Shown here piece by piece: positions 14,510 through 20,976 of a stretch of 64,000 bases of DNA; position 1 is the first letter of the stretch, and each line of letters starts with the position of its first letter. The position numbers and the translations under genes are program-made. The notes under the pieces are model-generated. The model did not search any database and was not told the origin of the DNA. It saw only the letters and a list, made by a program, of their open reading frames with translations. Origin of the DNA: Kordiimonadales bacterium IMCC3096 (GTDB lineage Bacteria > Pseudomonadota > Alphaproteobacteria > Minwuiales > Minwuiaceae); NCBI GenBank assembly GCA_016865035.1, contig CP018227.1, positions 3,129,501 through 3,193,500 on the forward strand. Direction: 5' to 3'.

Positions 14510-16681
14510 ATGGCTGAACGCAGTTTCAAGAAGGAAGTCGAGCTTCTGCGGCTTGGCGACGGTGATACCTTCGAGGGCGAGGGTATTCTGGCCGTCACCA
14601 AGGCGCTGCTGCAGTCCGGCGTTTCCTATGTCGGCGGCTATCAGGGCGCGCCTGTCAGCCATCTGATGGATGTGCTGAACGATGCCCGCCCGATCATGCA
14701 TGAGCTTGGCGTTCACGTGGAGACCTGCGCCTCCGAGGCCGGTGCCGCGGCGATGCTGGGGGCCTCCGTCAATTACCCGGTGCGCGGGGCGGCCACATGG
14801 AAGTCCACGGTCGGCACCAATGTCGCCTCCGACGCGCTCTCCAACCTTGCCTCTGCCGGGGTGACCGGCGGTGCGATGATCGTGATCGGGGAGGACTATG
14901 GTGAAGGCTCCTCCATCATTCAGGAGCGCAGCCATGCCTTTGCCATGAAATCGCAGATCTGGCTGCTCGACCCGCGCCCCAACCTGCCGTCGATCGTGAA
15001 GATGGTGGAGCAGGGTTTCGAACTCTCCGAGGCGTCGAGTACCCCGGTGATGCTGGAACTGCGCATCCGCGCCTGCCATGTGCACGGTCGGTTCGCCACG
15101 AAGGACAACCGGCGTGGCACCTTCTCCGGCCAGAACCGGATTGCCGACCCCAGCTTCGATTACGGACGCATCTGTCTGCCACCCGCCACCTATGTGCAGG
15201 AGAAGGACAAGATCGAGCGCCGATGGCCCGCCGCGGTGAACTTCATTCGCGACCATGACATGAACGAGGTGTTTCACGGTTCGGCGGATGACGTCGGCAT
15301 CGTCTGTCAGGGCGGCATGTACAACGCCGTCATCCGTGCGCTGCAGCAGGTCGGACTGGCCGACGCCTTCGGGGAAAGCGCCATCCCGATCTACTGCCTG
15401 AATGTCACCTATCCGCTGGTGCCCAGCGAGGTCACGGCCTTCTGCGCCTCGAAGCGCGCGGTGCTGATGGTGGAGGAGGGGCAGCCAGCCTACCTGGAAG
15501 AGGCGGTGAACGCGATCCTGCGAAAGTCGGACGTCCAGACCCGTGTGATGGGCAAGGGCCTGTTGCCGACGGCCGGGGAATATACGGGGGAGGCGGTGCT
15601 GCACGGCGTGGCCCGCTTCGTCGAGGGGGCGGTACCGAAGGGTGTCGATCTCGCCCCGGTGCTTCAGCGCTACCAGCAGATCGTCGATGCGAAGGCAAAG
15701 GCCGTGCGCCTGCTGGGGGAACCGATCCCGACCCGCCCGCCGGGGTTCTGCACCGGGTGTCCCGAACGGCCCGTCTTCTCCGCCATGAAGCTGGCGGAGC
15801 AGAAGGTGGGCAAGTTTCATGTTTCGGCGGATATCGGCTGCCACACCTTCTCCACGCTGCCGCCGTTCAACATCGGCAATACGGTGCTGGGCTACGGGCT
15901 TGGTCTGGCGAGTTCCACCGGCATCGGGCCGAACATGGACCGGCGGGTCGTCTCCGTCATGGGCGACGGCGGCTTCTGGCACAATGGCCTGACCAGCGGT
16001 GTCGCCAATGCCGTCTTCAATGATGATGACGGCGTGCTGGTGATCATGAACAACGGCTATACCTCCGCCACCGGCCACCAGGCGATCCCGTCGTCGGTGA
16101 AGGGGGGCGGTATCCGCAGTGGTGCGTTCCAGCCCGACGGCCAGGACATCGAACGTGCACTGCGCGGGGTAGGGGTCAAATGGATCCGGCACGTGCGTAC
16201 CTATTCGGTCTCGAAGGTCATCGGCACCCTGCGCGACGCCATGACGACGAAACGCGGCGGGCTGAAGGTGATCATCGCCGATGGTGAATGCCAGCTTGCC
16301 CGCCAGCGCCGGATCAGGCCGGAGGTCAGCGCGAAGGTGAAGGCCGGGAACCGTGTCGTCCGCACCCGCTTCGGCGTCGATGAGGATGTCTGCACGGGCG
16401 ACCACAGCTGCATCCGTCTCTCCGGCTGTCCCTCCCTTTCCGTGAAGCCGACCAGTGATCCGCTGCGGGATGATCCGGTGGCGCATGTGAACAATGACTG
16501 CGTTGGCTGCGGTCTCTGTGGTGAGGTCAGTCATGCTGCCGTGCTCTGCCCGTCGTTCTTCAAGGCTGACATCGTGCGCAATCCGGGGCGCCTCGACCGC
16601 TGGCGGCAGGGACTGAGGGATCGGGTGATCAGTCGTCTTTCCCGCAGTTCCGACGCGACCCGGCAGGAGAATGCCGCGTGA
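14510..16681 (+). CDS. iorA: Indolepyruvate ferredoxin oxidoreductase, alpha subunit
   Basis: A 723-residue thiamine-diphosphate 2-oxoacid oxidoreductase subunit. N-terminal pyrimidine-binding and transferase domains are followed by FCTGCPERP (about residues 413-421), the TPP signature GDGGFWHN (about 484) ending in MNNGYT, and a C-terminal [4Fe-4S] region with CTGDHSC, GCP and CVGCGLC motifs. The enzyme decarboxylates aryl pyruvates to aryl-acetyl-CoA and reduces an electron acceptor. It is read with iorB through a GTGA overlap. The start at ATG 14510 has GGGGGCG upstream. Confidence 0.9.
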   Translation: MAERSFKKEVELLRLGDGDTFEGEGILAVTKALLQSGVSYVGGYQGAPVSHLMDVLNDARPIMHELGVHVETCASEAGAAAMLGASVNYPVRGAATWKSTVGTNVASDALSNLASAGVTGGAMIVIGEDYGEGSSIIQERSHAFAMKSQIWLLDPRPNLPSIVKMVEQGFELSEASSTPVMLELRIRACHVHGRFATKDNRRGTFSGQNRIADPSFDYGRICLPPATYVQEKDKIERRWPAAVNFIRDHDMNEVFHGSADDVGIVCQGGMYNAVIRALQQVGLADAFGESAIPIYCLNVTYPLVPSEVTAFCASKRAVLMVEEGQPAYLEEAVNAILRKSDVQTRVMGKGLLPTAGEYTGEAVLHGVARFVEGAVPKGVDLAPVLQRYQQIVDAKAKAVRLLGEPIPTRPPGFCTGCPERPVFSAMKLAEQKVGKFHVSADIGCHTFSTLPPFNIGNTVLGYGLGLASSTGIGPNMDRRVVSVMGDGGFWHNGLTSGVANAVFNDDDGVLVIMNNGYTSATGHQAIPSSVKGGGIRSGAFQPDGQDIERALRGVGVKWIRHVRTYSVSKVIGTLRDAMTTKRGGLKVIIADGECQLARQRRIRPEVSAKVKAGNRVVRTRFGVDEDVCTGDHSCIRLSGCPSLSVKPTSDPLRDDPVAHVNNDCVGCGLCGEVSHAAVLCPSFFKADIVRNPGRLDRWRQGLRDRVISRLSRSSDATRQENAA

Positions 16682-18192
16682 GCGAGAGCCGGACGACGAC
16701 GGTCCTGATCGCGGCACTGGGGGGAGAAGGCGGCGGCGTGCTCGCGGGCTGGCTGGTGGATGCCGCCGGTGGCGCGGGGCATTGGGTGCAGCAGACCTCC
16801 ATTCCCGGTGTCGCCCAGCGCACCGGCGCCACGACCTATTACATCGAGATCATGGAGCGCCCCGAAGGTGACGACCGGCAGCCGGTGATGGGACTGACCG
16901 CCAGTCCCGGCAATGTCGATGTCATGGTTGCCTCCGAATTGCTGGAGGCCGGGCGGGCGCTGGAGAATGGCTTTGTCACGCCCGACCGCACTACGCTGAT
17001 CGCCTCGACCCACCGCATCTATGCCATCGCAGAGAAGTCCGCCATGGCGGACGGGCGCTACGATGCGGAACGCGTCCGCCGCGCGGCGGAGCAGATGGCG
17101 GCGCGGCAGGTGCTGTTCGACATGCAGGCAGAGGCGGAGCGCGCGAACACCGTGATCAATGCCGTGCTGTTCGGTGCCATGGCCGGTGCCAACGTGCTGC
17201 CGTTGCCGCGGGAGGCGTTCGAGGATGCGATCCGCTCCGGCGGCATTGCGGTGGAAGCCAATCTCGCGGGCTTCGATCTCGGGTTCCGGATGGCGCAGGG
17301 GGAGCGCCCTGCCGGGAAGAAGGACACGACGGCGGTCTCGGACGATGACGGGCTGGGCGACCGGACCCTGACAGACCGCATCAACCGCAACCTGCCAGGG
17401 ATGCTGCAGGAACTGGCGCGGGAGGGGGCGCGGCGGCTGATCGACTATCAGGGTGTCGGCTACGCGCGTTTCTATCTCGACCGGCTGGAGCCGATGGTGA
17501 AGGCGGATGCTGTGCGCGGCGGCACGTCGCGGTCCTTTGCCGTCAGCCGGGAAGTCACGCGGCGGCTGGCGGTCTGGATGGCGTTCGAGGATCTGATCCG
17601 TGTCGCCGACCTGAAGATCCGCCCCGAACGGGTGGCGCGGGTCCGGGCGGAGGTGAAGGCCGCCGCCGATGAGCCCGTGATGATCACGGAGTTCCTGAAG
17701 CCGGGCGTGGACGAGGTGGCGTCGCTGCTGCCCCCCGCCCTCGGGCGCTGGGCCATCGGGCTGGCGGATCGGGCCGGGGTACGATACCGGCTGAACGTCG
17801 GCATGCACGTCTCCACGACCCGCATCAGGGGCTTTCTGCCCATGTGGCTGCTGTCGCGGCTGAAGGGCTGGCGGCCCAGGACATTGCGCTTCGCGGAGGA
17901 ACAGGAACGCATCGACCGCTGGCTCGCCGTGATCAGCGATGCGCTGGAGGCCGACTATGATCTGGCGCGGGAGATCGCGGTCGCGGGCAAGGTCGTGCGC
18001 GGCTACTCCGACACCCATCGGCGCGGCATTCGCAACTTTCACCTGCTGATGGATGCGGTGCCTGCCTGCAAGGCTGCCCGCCCGCCCGCCAGGGCCTTCC
18101 GCACCCTGCTCGACGCGGCCCTCAGTGACCCTGAAGGCGATGCTCTCGACCGGGCGCTCGCGGCACTGCACGGGGAGAACGCGGCGGCCTGA
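16678..18192 (+). CDS. iorB: Indolepyruvate oxidoreductase, beta subunit with C-terminal extension
   Basis: A 504-residue protein. Residues 1-200 are the oxidoreductase gamma/beta-type domain (ALGGEGGGVLAGWLVDAA; QTSIPGVAQRTGATTYYIE). The remaining 300 residues match the long C-terminal extension (DUF6537-like) seen in proteobacterial IorB, whereas archaeal IorB is about 200 residues. The GTG start at 16678 overlaps the iorA stop by four bases, which supports stoichiometric translation of the complex. Confidence 0.88.
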   Translation: MSESRTTTVLIAALGGEGGGVLAGWLVDAAGGAGHWVQQTSIPGVAQRTGATTYYIEIMERPEGDDRQPVMGLTASPGNVDVMVASELLEAGRALENGFVTPDRTTLIASTHRIYAIAEKSAMADGRYDAERVRRAAEQMAARQVLFDMQAEAERANTVINAVLFGAMAGANVLPLPREAFEDAIRSGGIAVEANLAGFDLGFRMAQGERPAGKKDTTAVSDDDGLGDRTLTDRINRNLPGMLQELAREGARRLIDYQGVGYARFYLDRLEPMVKADAVRGGTSRSFAVSREVTRRLAVWMAFEDLIRVADLKIRPERVARVRAEVKAAADEPVMITEFLKPGVDEVASLLPPALGRWAIGLADRAGVRYRLNVGMHVSTTRIRGFLPMWLLSRLKGWRPRTLRFAEEQERIDRWLAVISDALEADYDLAREIAVAGKVVRGYSDTHRRGIRNFHLLMDAVPACKAARPPARAFRTLLDAALSDPEGDALDRALAALHGENAAA

Positions 18193-18229
18193 AAGGGGCG
18201 TCCGGTCTCCTCCACCCCACTTCACGCCT

Positions 18230-18612
18230 CACCCGGGCCTGACCCGGGTGTCCAGTCTCCGCCGTTCGCGCGGCACCGCTGGGTACCCGGATCAAGTCCC
18301 GGTACGGCGTGAGTTATGGGGGAGATGGCGGAGATGTTTCGGCAGTTCCTAACCACCACGTCGCTCTCGGGCTTGACCCGAGAGCCCAGTCTCCGCCGTT
18401 CGTGCGGCACTGCTGGGCCACCGGATCAAGTCCGGTGGCGACGTCCGTGTTGGTGGTGGCGCGGGTGTCTTGTTCGTCTCCGCCCAGCACCACGTCGCTC
18501 TCGGGCTTGACCCGAGAGCCCAGTCTCCGCAGTCCGTGCGGCACTGCGGGGTACCCGGATCTAGTCCGGGTACGGCGTGAGTTATGGGGAGACGGCGGAG
18601 ATGTTTCGGCAC
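18230..18612. repeat. Three tandem copies of a 134-bp double-palindrome unit
   Basis: The 454-base gap between convergent iorB and the EthD gene holds three units with an exact 134-bp period. Each unit has two hairpins whose centres are 54 bp apart. First hairpins: 18230-18250, 18363-18385, 18497-18519, with 8-9 bp stems around five-base loops. Second hairpins: 18283-18305, 18417-18439, 18551-18573; the last two have perfect 9-bp stems. A tail from the second hairpin to GATGTTTCGGCA is shared by units 1 and 3 (to 18345 and 18612). Stem sequences differ between units but the pairing is kept, as detailed in the findings. No convincing protein is encoded. Confidence 0.9.
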
Positions 18613-18646
18613 CTCCCCGCCCCCACGCCCGAGAGGCCAATCCAGG

Positions 18647-19315
18647 CTAGAGGATCACATGTTCCTTGGTGATCACGAAGTCGAGCCGGTCACCATCGAT
18701 GAAGTTCGGCTCGTCGGCGATGGTCTCCTTGTAGGCGGCGCTTTCAGGTGATGTGCGCATGTCGGCCATGGAATTGAACCAGACCATGGCGAAGCCGTCG
18801 CAATCCGGTTCGCGTCCGCCCATGTAGGCGCTCAGCCTGGCGTGGTTCTGGATGTAGCGGCGCACGTTGGGAATGCTCGCGCCCAGCGGTCCGTGAGTAT
18901 TCCGCCAGTGATCCTGAAACCGATCGACCGACAGACGCTTCAGCCGGTGCAGGATCTCGATGATCTTGAAGCCGTCGCTGGCCACCGGTTCGTCCTTCAT
19001 CACGTGTTCCTCCACCAGCAGCAGGCTCATGGTGGAACGGTCGACGAATTTCTCCTCATCCGCGATCAGCTCCGGCCAGACGGCGCTGGTGATGTTGCGC
19101 TTCATGGTCTCGGTATCCGGCCACCAGGTCTCCGCGATGCCGTCCACGGGCAGATCACGTTTCGCATAGCCCTGCGGCAACGGATGATTCTGGGTATAGC
19201 GTTGCAGGCCATCCAGCTTCAGCACCGCCTTCGGGTGCTCATTCAGCCAGTAGTCCTGGAATTCATCGACCGGCATGCCCTTGCGGCGCCGGAATGTCAG
19301 TACGGATTTGATCAT
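18647..19315 (-). CDS. Protein with two EthD domains
   Basis: A 222-residue protein built from two ferredoxin-like EthD/dimeric alpha-beta-barrel units (about residues 1-105 and 112-222). Each has the family pattern, with a long strand (IKSVLTFRRRKGMPVDEFQDYW; FKIIEILHRLKRLSVDRFQDHW, each abbreviated by its first and last residues in the fold) and an RYxQNH segment. The fusion could mimic the usual homodimer in one chain. EthD proteins assist or act in degradation of ethers, polyketide-like and aromatic compounds. ATG 19315 has GGGGAGGGAG just upstream; upstream in-frame codons lack a ribosome site. Confidence 0.8.
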   Translation of the reverse strand: MIKSVLTFRRRKGMPVDEFQDYWLNEHPKAVLKLDGLQRYTQNHPLPQGYAKRDLPVDGIAETWWPDTETMKRNITSAVWPELIADEEKFVDRSTMSLLLVEEHVMKDEPVASDGFKIIEILHRLKRLSVDRFQDHWRNTHGPLGASIPNVRRYIQNHARLSAYMGGREPDCDGFAMVWFNSMADMRTSPESAAYKETIADEPNFIDGDRLDFVITKEHVIL

Positions 19316-19391
19316 CGCTCCCTCCCCGGAGTTGATGGCATCTTCGTGACAGACGCCGTCCGCCGCAAGTGAGAAGCTGCCGTTGCGGCAA

Positions 19392-19835
19392 TCAGGCAGG
19401 CAGGGACACCCAGCACGAGGTGACCAGTCCGGTCGCGCACAGGCTCTCTCGCTTGCCATCGACAGCGTGAATATCCACCCGGCTCAGGGCCTGGTTGCGT
19501 CCCGGCTTGATGACCGTTCCCCGGGCCACAAGCCTTTCACCACCTGCGGGACCGAGGTGATGGGTCTCGAATCCAAGTGTCCGGATCGTTTGCTCTTCCG
19601 GGGTCAGGGTCAGGGCGGCGGCACCTCCGGCGATATCCAGCAAGGCACCGACCAGACCGCCCTGCACATGTGCCCCGTCAAAGGTGAGTGCCGCCGCGAC
19701 CGGCATCTCGATCTCGCTGGTACCGGGACCGAAGGCCCTCAGTACGAGACCGAGTGTGGCGGATGCGGGCATGCGGGAGAGAAAGTCACGCGCCACGGCC
19801 TCGAAATCGTCGCGGCGGGGTTCAAGCAACAACAT
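19392..19835 (-). CDS. PaaI-like hotdog-fold thioesterase
   Basis: A 147-residue single hotdog-fold protein. The HVQGGLVGALLDIAGGAA segment corresponds to the family's HGG...ADxAxG active-site helix. Such enzymes hydrolyse acyl- or aryl-CoA thioesters. GAGGT lies 7 bases before ATG 19835. It is divergent from the enolase-superfamily gene at 19900 with only 64 bases between, so the two probably share regulation. The substrate is unknown. Confidence 0.82.
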   Translation of the reverse strand: MLLLEPRRDDFEAVARDFLSRMPASATLGLVLRAFGPGTSEIEMPVAAALTFDGAHVQGGLVGALLDIAGGAAALTLTPEEQTIRTLGFETHHLGPAGGERLVARGTVIKPGRNQALSRVDIHAVDGKRESLCATGLVTSCWVSLPA

Positions 19836-19899
19836 CGGTGTACCTCGTATTGCGGGGGAAAGGGGCGTAGTCTGATCGTCTGGTGGAGGAGTGAAAACC

Positions 19900-20976
19900 A
19901 TGCGCATCGAAAGCATCCGCGCCCGCGCGGTCAATGTCCCCATGAATCGCCCGCTCGTGACAGGCGGCGGATCGGTCACGACAGCGCCACTGGTGCTCAT
20001 CGACCTGGAAACGGACAAGGGCGTTGTCGGGCGAAGCTACATCTTCGCCGTCTCCCCCATGCTGTCGGCGGGACTTGTTTCCATGGTGCAGCAGCTTGGC
20101 AATGACCTGACCGGTGTCGATCTGCGTCCGCGCACGGTGCACCAGACCATGTGCCGTCGCCTTCGCCTCGCCGGTGTCGATGGCCTGCTCGGATGGGTGG
20201 TCGCGGGGATCGACATGGCCGTCTGGGATGCCCACGCCCGCTGGCTGGAGGAACCGCTCTATCGGGTGCTGGGCGGCGCGTCGCAGCCCGTTGCGGCCTA
20301 CAATTCCAACGGGCTCGGCCTGATCGGGCCGGAGAAGGCCGGACCGGAAGCAGCAGAGCTGGCGGAGGGCTTCGGCGCGGTGAAGGTGCGTCTGGGCTAT
20401 GAGGACATCGAAACGGATGTCATGACGGTGGCGGCGGTGATGGAGGCGGTGCCGGAGGGCATGCCGGTCATGTGCGACTACAACCAGTCGCTCAACCGTG
20501 CGCAGGCGAAGATGCGTTTCGCGGCCATCGACGACATGGGGCTGGAATGGATCGAGGAACCGCTGACGGCGGAGGATGTGGGCGGCTACGCCGACCTGCG
20601 CCAGTGGTCGAGCACCCCGATCCAGCTCGGCGAGAACGCGCGCAGCCCGATGGATATTGCGCGCCTGATCCGGGATGGCGCCGGCGATCTGCTGATGCCG
20701 GACGTGGCCAAGATCGGTGGGGTCACCAACTGGCTGCGGGCCGCGGAACTCTGTGCCGCTGCCGAGGTGCCGATCTCCAGCCATCTGTTCCCGGAGTTCA
20801 GTGTCCACATGCTGGCCACCACCCCGACCGCGCACTGGCTGGAATTCGTCGACTGGGCCGCCCCCGTCATCCGGGAACCGCTGGAGGTCGTGGACGGCTA
20901 TGCGCTGCCGCCGGACCGGCCTGGTGCCGGTATCGACTGGAACGAGGAAGCGGTTTCGCGCTATCTCGCACGGTAG
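19900..20976 (+). CDS. Enolase-superfamily (mandelate racemase/muconate lactonizing-like) enzyme
   Basis: A 358-residue enzyme with an N-terminal capping domain and a C-terminal barrel. The likely catalytic bases are Lys162 (in KVR at 162-164) and His295 (SSHLFPEF). The metal ligands are Asp193, Glu219 and Glu245 (CDYNQ, WIEEP, LGENA). This set is the mandelate-racemase-type arrangement, used for racemisation or dehydration of hydroxy acids. GTG 19891 directly abuts the GGAGGA site, so ATG 19900 is the better start. It leads a plus-strand group with a flavoprotein and an acyl-CoA dehydrogenase. Confidence 0.88.
   Translation: MRIESIRARAVNVPMNRPLVTGGGSVTTAPLVLIDLETDKGVVGRSYIFAVSPMLSAGLVSMVQQLGNDLTGVDLRPRTVHQTMCRRLRLAGVDGLLGWVVAGIDMAVWDAHARWLEEPLYRVLGGASQPVAAYNSNGLGLIGPEKAGPEAAELAEGFGAVKVRLGYEDIETDVMTVAAVMEAVPEGMPVMCDYNQSLNRAQAKMRFAAIDDMGLEWIEEPLTAEDVGGYADLRQWSSTPIQLGENARSPMDIARLIRDGAGDLLMPDVAKIGGVTNWLRAAELCAAAEVPISSHLFPEFSVHMLATTPTAHWLEFVDWAAPVIREPLEVVDGYALPPDRPGAGIDWNEEAVSRYLAR

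Follow-up and report, generated by a model that had tools for sequence, protein, structure and literature searches.

A probable CGTC-type REP family at gene 3′ ends in the genus Minwuia

The gap between iorB and its convergent neighbour in the window, as we call the whole 64,000-nt stretch of DNA that was analysed, holds three tandem units of a repeat that is dispersed in the genome and lies at gene 3′ ends. Its copies keep their pairing, units are most alike within arrays, some units are mosaics, and arrays are present in one species and absent from the same site in another. We consider it likely that these units belong to a non-autonomous family of CGTC-type REPs, tolerated at gene 3′ ends, reshuffled by recombination and moved by something other than a Y1 transposase. 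The class itself is already known.

The three units lie head to tail in the gap 18193-18646, with starts at 18216, 18350 and 18484. Each is composed of two hairpins, H1 and H2, both with 9 bp and a 5-nt loop, a 31-nt spacer between them and a short closing stem; the hairpin centres are 54 bp apart in all three units. The features of the region are given below in window coordinates; G001 and G002 are the two nearest congeners.

16678-18192, + strand: left neighbour, an IorB-like protein whose plasmid matches carry the annotation indolepyruvate oxidoreductase subunit beta family
18199-18211, + strand: likely spacer remnant of a further unit at the left end, judged by eye; the G001 ortholog has a partial unit there
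18216-18319, + strand: unit 1, CGTC-type REP head-head dimer (covariance model, 107.5 bits)
18229-18251, + strand: H1 of unit 1, TCACCCGGG CCTGA CCCGGGTGT, with T.T at its base (sequence, alignment)
18252-18282, + strand: spacer of unit 1, with paired ends as in unit 2 (pair counts, folds)
18283-18305, + strand: H2 of unit 1, with one C.C mismatch (18288/18300; sequence, alignment)
18350-18453, + strand: unit 2 (covariance model, 115.2 bits)
18363-18385, + strand: H1 of unit 2, GCTCTCGGG CTTGA CCCGAGAGC (sequence, alignment)
18386-18416, + strand: spacer of unit 2, with complementary ends CCAG/CTGG forming the middle stem (pair counts, folds)
18417-18439, + strand: H2 of unit 2, GCCACCGGA TCAAG TCCGGTGGC (sequence, alignment)
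18484-18587, + strand: unit 3, a mosaic that resembles unit 2 in its left half and unit 1 in its right half and switches just before H2 (covariance model, 109 bits; breakpoint test)
18497-18519, + strand: H1 of unit 3, identical to H1 of unit 2 (sequence, alignment)
18520-18550, + strand: spacer of unit 3, with poorer pairing of its ends (pair counts, folds)
18551-18573, + strand: H2 of unit 3, GTACCCGGA TCTAG TCCGGGTAC (sequence, alignment)
18624-18635, − strand: likely hairpin-arm remnant at the right end, suggested by inverted repeats; G001 has a weak fourth unit there
18647-19459, − strand: right neighbour, convergent ORF, putative EthD; the codon-usage gene caller starts it at 19315

A repeat search found 112 nt repeated three times at spacings of 134 and 134, copies 2 and 3 being 70% and 82% identical to the first. 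Tandem Repeats Finder (minimum score 40) missed the array, probably owing to the divergence of its units. The covariance model recognized all three units, each of which also matched on the opposite strand at a lower score, and detected no further unit anywhere in the 64 kb window (E up to 0.01). The three units at an exact 134-bp period and the paired hairpins with centres 54 bp apart, both described in the first-pass annotation, were thus recovered, and the stem changes cited there were found letter for letter. Its statement that the stems differ yet stay paired holds in large part, but unit 1 carries a T.T in H1 and a C.C in H2. The CCAG/CTGG middle stem, the closing stem and the likely remnants at both array ends are features beyond that description.

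The host genome (4.29 Mb) belongs to the genus Minwuia, and the nearest named relatives, whose IorB is 96, 93 and 86% identical, are all Minwuia assemblies. BLAST with unit 2 gave 43 matches in this genome, and the covariance model, built from an alignment of 27 complete copies with three incomplete copies left out, detected at least 75 copies at no fewer than 41 sites. Scoring of 150 of 5541 candidates yielded 138 genome matches, of which 75 remained (a single one per place, E up to about 0.003) after manual removal of weaker matches and of twins on the opposite strand; the orientation of a copy is that of its better-scoring strand. Two to four copies were present at 25 of the 41 sites and a single unit at the other 16, and within each array all units shared one orientation. 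Tandem spacings were 125-126 in 10 of 34 cases and 133-134 in 4 of 34. In a sample of 40 copies (at least 73 bits, at most 110 nt), units of one array resembled each other more closely (0.841, 16 pairs) than did units of different sites (0.736, 764 pairs), and none of 2000 permutations gave a within-array value as high. Longer variants were observed in the same genome at L124, L126 and L132 (near 1761841, 1762507, 1854733 and 2124829), with a spacer about 48 nt longer, a total length of 151-153 nt and both hairpins unchanged.

Of 60 genomes surveyed, the host included, 18 gave matches, among them the host and every one of the six congeners searched; match numbers per genome in this survey are minimum values from the best 66 candidates each and include opposite-strand twins. 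In the distant congeners G003 and G006, the best copies represent a related variety that differs in its stems and has less spacer. A search of plasmids with one unit gave no match. The suggestion of a mobile REP/BIME-like element of this lineage, made in the first-pass annotation, therefore stands as regards a dispersed REP/BIME-like element (75 copies at 41 sites, and all six congeners). The annotation had also considered that the unit might be absent elsewhere and its pairing unconserved; this is clearly not the case, copies being dispersed and pairing kept.

CGTC-type REPs were described in 2013 as predominant in Alphaproteobacteria and without a dedicated transposase, and their mover was left open (Di Nocera, De Gregorio and Rocco, PMC3733652). 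In the class description of that paper, the elements carry an unpaired CGTC-like tag on one side of each hairpin, an 8-9 bp stem, a 4-5 nt loop and a CCA tail, and form head-head dimers, commonly heterodimers, with complementary spacer ends; their main location is near gene 3′ ends, in gaps between convergent or co-directional genes (PMC3733652). The same description allows the tag variants TGTC and CCTC, places A-T pairs 'almost invariably' at the first and second stem positions, and calls grouped elements rare (PMC3733652).

By its sequence features, each Minwuia unit is a putative head-to-head heterodimer of CGTC-type REPs, with the tags outside and a structured spacer. The outer tag begins with CG in 94 of 98 copies (H1) and 91 of 98 (H2). 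The exact CGTC tag occurs in 12 and 16 of the 98 copies, respectively; CGCC is commonest, and CGAT, CGAC and CGTT are common. A CCA tail is present in 76/98 and 84/98 copies, and in Minwuia this tail also joins the middle stem. The 9 bp stems and 5-nt loops (CTTGA/TCAAG and close variants) fit the range of CGTC REPs. Over the 98 copies the first stem pair is mostly G-C, and the second is C-G in H1 and U-A or C-G in H2; the A-T pairs usual at the stem base of the published CGTC families are missing. Since the A-T rule is given as 'almost invariably' and not as absolute, this lack would mark a diverged subfamily. The aligned copies have the order of head-head dimers, with tags outside; the model was built from dimers and leaves single hairpins elsewhere uncounted. 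Outside the genus, inspection by eye of the best matches in 11 genomes showed dimers tagged CGTC or TGTC in 9, the exceptions being G011 and G033.

Judged by the class description rather than by published family consensus sequences, the Minwuia units resemble CGTC REPs in the place and the first two bases of the outer tag, in stem, loop, CCA tail, head-head dimers and paired spacer ends, as well as in their location at gene 3′ ends, the lack of a dedicated transposase in a scan for the Y1 type and the alphaproteobacterial host. They differ in a looser tag that is partly paired in the closing stem, in a stem base that is usually G-C rather than A-T, and in being tandem at 25 of 41 sites, whereas the published class is rarely grouped; Minwuia sites are also mostly convergent. 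The looser tag and the missing A-T pairs weigh against the preferred reading. The BIMEs of E. coli, with GTAG REPs and a RAYT, are paired inverted REPs in extragenic space that avoid divergent gaps and are amplified in tandem. Minwuia units share with them the paired inverted REPs, the avoidance of divergent gaps and the tandem units, but GTAG was absent from the listed tags and no Y1 transposase (PF01797) was detected, and membership in the GTAG REP/RAYT class was rejected. RIME1 of Sinorhizobium, an intergenic element of roughly 100 bp in Alphaproteobacteria that contains two large palindromes, is similar to the Minwuia unit in these respects. In Rfam, positions 17000-20000 gave only mir-3130, at 21.1 bits where 95 are needed (E 0.88). 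No earlier description of the Minwuia family was found in the open-access literature, as covered by titles and abstract openings of top results.

Comparison between species revealed turnover of arrays. The arrays at 1462398 and 1518112 of the host genome, 56 kb apart, are 93% identical over 319 nt, spacers included, and their homology starts at the outer C-rich flank of the unit. At 1462398, identity to the orthologous G001 array is only about 78%, against 89-92% in the flanks, and in G002 this site is cut down to half a unit. The site at 1518112 is an empty gap in both G001 (24 nt) and G002 (23 nt). This state was read from these two relatives; the loci of G003, G004 and G006 gave no BLAST match to the right-hand flank, and near this place G003 carries a unit belonging to that species' own variety, on the far side of another small gene. 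Because IorB of the host is closer to that of G001 (96%) than to that of G002 (93%) and the site is empty in both, the array at 1518112 would most simply be read as gained in the host lineage by copying from, or together with, the array 56 kb away; loss in both G001 and G002 is the alternative.

At the iorB site, two complete units and two weaker, partial ones were found in G001, and G002 has at least four, running to the contig end, where the last is cut off. A third relative at this site (L091) has a different neighbour and no unit match. The four-unit array of G002 (L157) has no counterpart in the host or in G001, where another palindrome, CCTTCCCCC-N5-GGGGGAAGG, sits at that place. An orthologous host site with a unit was found for all 9 of the G001 sites and 6 of the 10 G002 sites examined, often with different unit numbers; these sites were taken from the best-scoring matches and not at random, and form a biased sample. 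Of the ten from G002, L157 and L158 were traced by search, L166 was not, and L165, with a host match of just 74%, was not counted; L149, L160 and L164 had one matching flank only. The shared sites show long persistence as well as movement, which counts against the preferred reading. Occupied and empty gaps had no alignable non-coding flank and aligned poorly around the insertions, and target-site duplications, which would mark a MITE, and clean junctions are unreadable for that reason.

Recombination is visible within the array itself. Through the end of H1, unit 3 matches unit 2 at 33 of 36 positions and unit 1 at 24 of 36; after H2, it matches unit 1 at 40 of 45 and unit 2 at 21 of 45. A single breakpoint between alignment columns 62 and 69 fits 40 of 45 informative positions, and none of 100,000 permutations was as good, in a test that treats adjacent positions as exchangeable. 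Any one of units 1, 2 and 3 may be the recombinant; all three are mosaics. As unit 3 is first unit-2-like and then unit-1-like, the difference in H2 between units 2 and 3 belongs to a block exchange. The first-pass annotation had counted it as three compensatory changes; they are not separate mutations there, the H2 stem having been swapped within the block. Whole stem types also differ between other orthologous arrays. Stem 'covariation' among tandem units can thus be block exchange, and such units are therefore not countable as independent compensatory mutations.

Pairing was assessed in an alignment of 98 distinct copies fitted to the covariance model (105 matches at 60 loci of the host, G001 and G002; three locus pairs overlap, and one opposite-strand twin, L159, is included). 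Standard pairs were found in 90.3% of pair cells. Two-sided changes occurred in 251 cells, whereas shuffles gave 89 (sd 14) and slid controls no more than 32; the relatedness of copies inflates counts of this kind. The spacer ends were paired in 90.5% of cells, and the outer tags of one unit paired with each other in 76.5%, forming the closing stem. The best locus-specific paired change was at the iorB site, where TCACCCGGG/CCCGGGTGT of unit 1 corresponds to TCACTCGGG/CCCGAGTGT in both complete units of G001 and also in G002. One step of a compensatory path was represented by GCCACCGGA/TCCGGCGGC in G001, which stands between the common GCCGCCGGA/TCCGGCGGC and GCCACCGGA/TCCGGTGGC of the window. 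Since covariation exceeds the controls, recognition or function of the hairpins may be under selection, which also counts against the preferred reading.

Over all pairs, A.C mismatches (53) outnumbered G.T mismatches (28), and a single H2 pair (columns 129-147) was A.C in 32 of 98 copies. Without this common pair, G.T (28) and A.C (21) did not differ significantly (p 0.39), and strand bias of mismatches was rejected as a sign of RNA. The earlier proposal that the folded structure is selected is favoured by pairing above both shuffled and slid controls, but the mismatches give no sign that it is selected as RNA. Instead of selection, templated correction at replication, acting on imperfect palindromes, could be the main cause of the kept pairing, two processes that are inseparable with these data. 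We regard this as rather unlikely: both hairpins are represented by a small pool of whole-stem types and intermediates such as the G001 stem above do occur, which is consistent with correction, but efficient correction should have removed the A.C pair carried by a third of the copies (32/98).

Folding of the + strand with DNA parameters gave z values of -3.8, -5.3 and -5.1 for units 1, 2 and 3, and RNA parameters gave -5.4, -5.6 and -5.6; for each unit and either parameter set, 0 of 200 shuffled controls were as good as the real fold. A single strand of a unit is predicted to be able to adopt a cloverleaf-like shape. The CCAG/CTGG middle stem is absent from the predicted fold of unit 3, and in the RNA fold of unit 1, H1 and H2 preferentially pair with each other to give one long hairpin, as their inverted relationship allows.

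The 41 host sites comprised 34 convergent, 7 co-directional and no divergent gene pairs, compared with 29 convergent, 191 co-directional and 51 divergent pairs in a background of 271. The convergent excess (34/41 versus 29/271) was highly significant (Fisher p 2.4e-21); gene context came from a simple codon-usage gene caller, and overlapping loci count some background pairs twice. The distance from stop codon to element had a median of 40 nt and was at most 50 nt in 39 of 68 cases. In the preferred reading, selection would purge the repeat where promoters or operons would suffer, and convergent gaps would be its refuge.

The same location, close to stops at convergent genes, would suit bidirectional terminators or 3′-end mRNA stabilisers selected as RNA hairpins, and strong RNA folds (all three units on the + strand, unit 2 on the − strand) and pairing maintained across copies agree with such a role. 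We nevertheless judge it unlikely. Of the 12 convergent junctions called in the window, the 11 besides that of the array are gene overlaps or leave no more than 44 nt between the genes, and the 64 kb gave no further unit; orthologous sites in close relatives are empty, hold half a unit or hold another palindrome. An intrinsic terminator (GC hairpin followed by a T-run) was rejected, as no T-run follows H1 or H2, and 1 kb contains a single terminator-like match (0.5 expected), which begins just after H2 of unit 2. G.T was also not significantly above A.C, although this comparison would lose power where both sides are transcribed. Evolution has evidently been able to dispense with single arrays, and array turnover together with short convergent gaps lacking a unit makes a required terminator or RNA function unlikely. 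The hairpins may still have a weak effect on transcripts that read through from the two sides.

It is more doubtful still that the units are DNA sites for a binding protein at the ends of convergent genes, kept in tandem at about 125-134 bp. E. coli BIMEs have been reported to bind gyrase or a nucleoid protein, and positive supercoils from two polymerases would meet between convergent genes, where the units are found; the clustering of tandem periods at 125-126 (10/34) and 133-134 (4/34) and the lack of a significant strand bias of hairpin mismatches are in line with such a site. On the other hand, only 41 sites were found in the genome, 16 of them with a single unit, and sites come and go between species.

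The first-pass annotation had suggested looking for a RAYT-like transposase elsewhere in the genome. No match to Y1_Tnp (PF01797) was detected in the host or the six congeners, two of these seven genomes being single contigs, whereas 5 of 14 well-known genomes, including E. coli and Caulobacter, were positive as controls. The scan covered the Y1 type only. In another set of 10 genomes, PF01797 was present in 5 (G008, G009, G020, G045 and G051), all outside the genus; G011 and G017, likewise outside it, have unit matches and no PF01797. A RAYT is thus an unlikely mover in Minwuia, and a RAYT-mobilised REP/BIME system, to which the general anatomy of REP dimers would correspond, is highly improbable given these results.

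Under the preferred reading of a non-autonomous CGTC-type REP family, the repeat would be copied by a non-Y1 activity, such as another enzyme acting in trans; alternatively, copying could occur by replication-coupled template switching and recombination at the hairpins. We tentatively raise the possibility that CGTC REPs are still spreading in Minwuia, both as single dimers and as whole arrays with their spacers, in genomes without a detected Y1. Such spread would imply a mechanism new for REPs, for example an unrelated enzyme in trans or replication-coupled copying between hairpin arrays. Minwuia offers several sequenced species, orthologous presence and absence, near-identical array pairs at different sites and no detected Y1.

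Several additional observations were made in the course of these comparisons. Half units, consisting of one hairpin and half a spacer, are present in the host at L185 (about G000:C1:2439722) and in G001 at L184; G002 has three full units there. The palindrome CCTTCCCCC-N5-GGGGGAAGG forms a family of its own, with 16 exact copies in the host, 31 in G001, 12 in G002 and none in the other four congeners; the host copies are at L176 (about G000:C1:2547688) and 15 more places, and a backwards control pattern gave 0 matches. A different palindrome, with CCCGGG-type stems and GGATGAC ends, occurs in the convergent gaps L178 and L187 of G004, at the site of a G002 array in the former and beside one unit of the present family in the latter.
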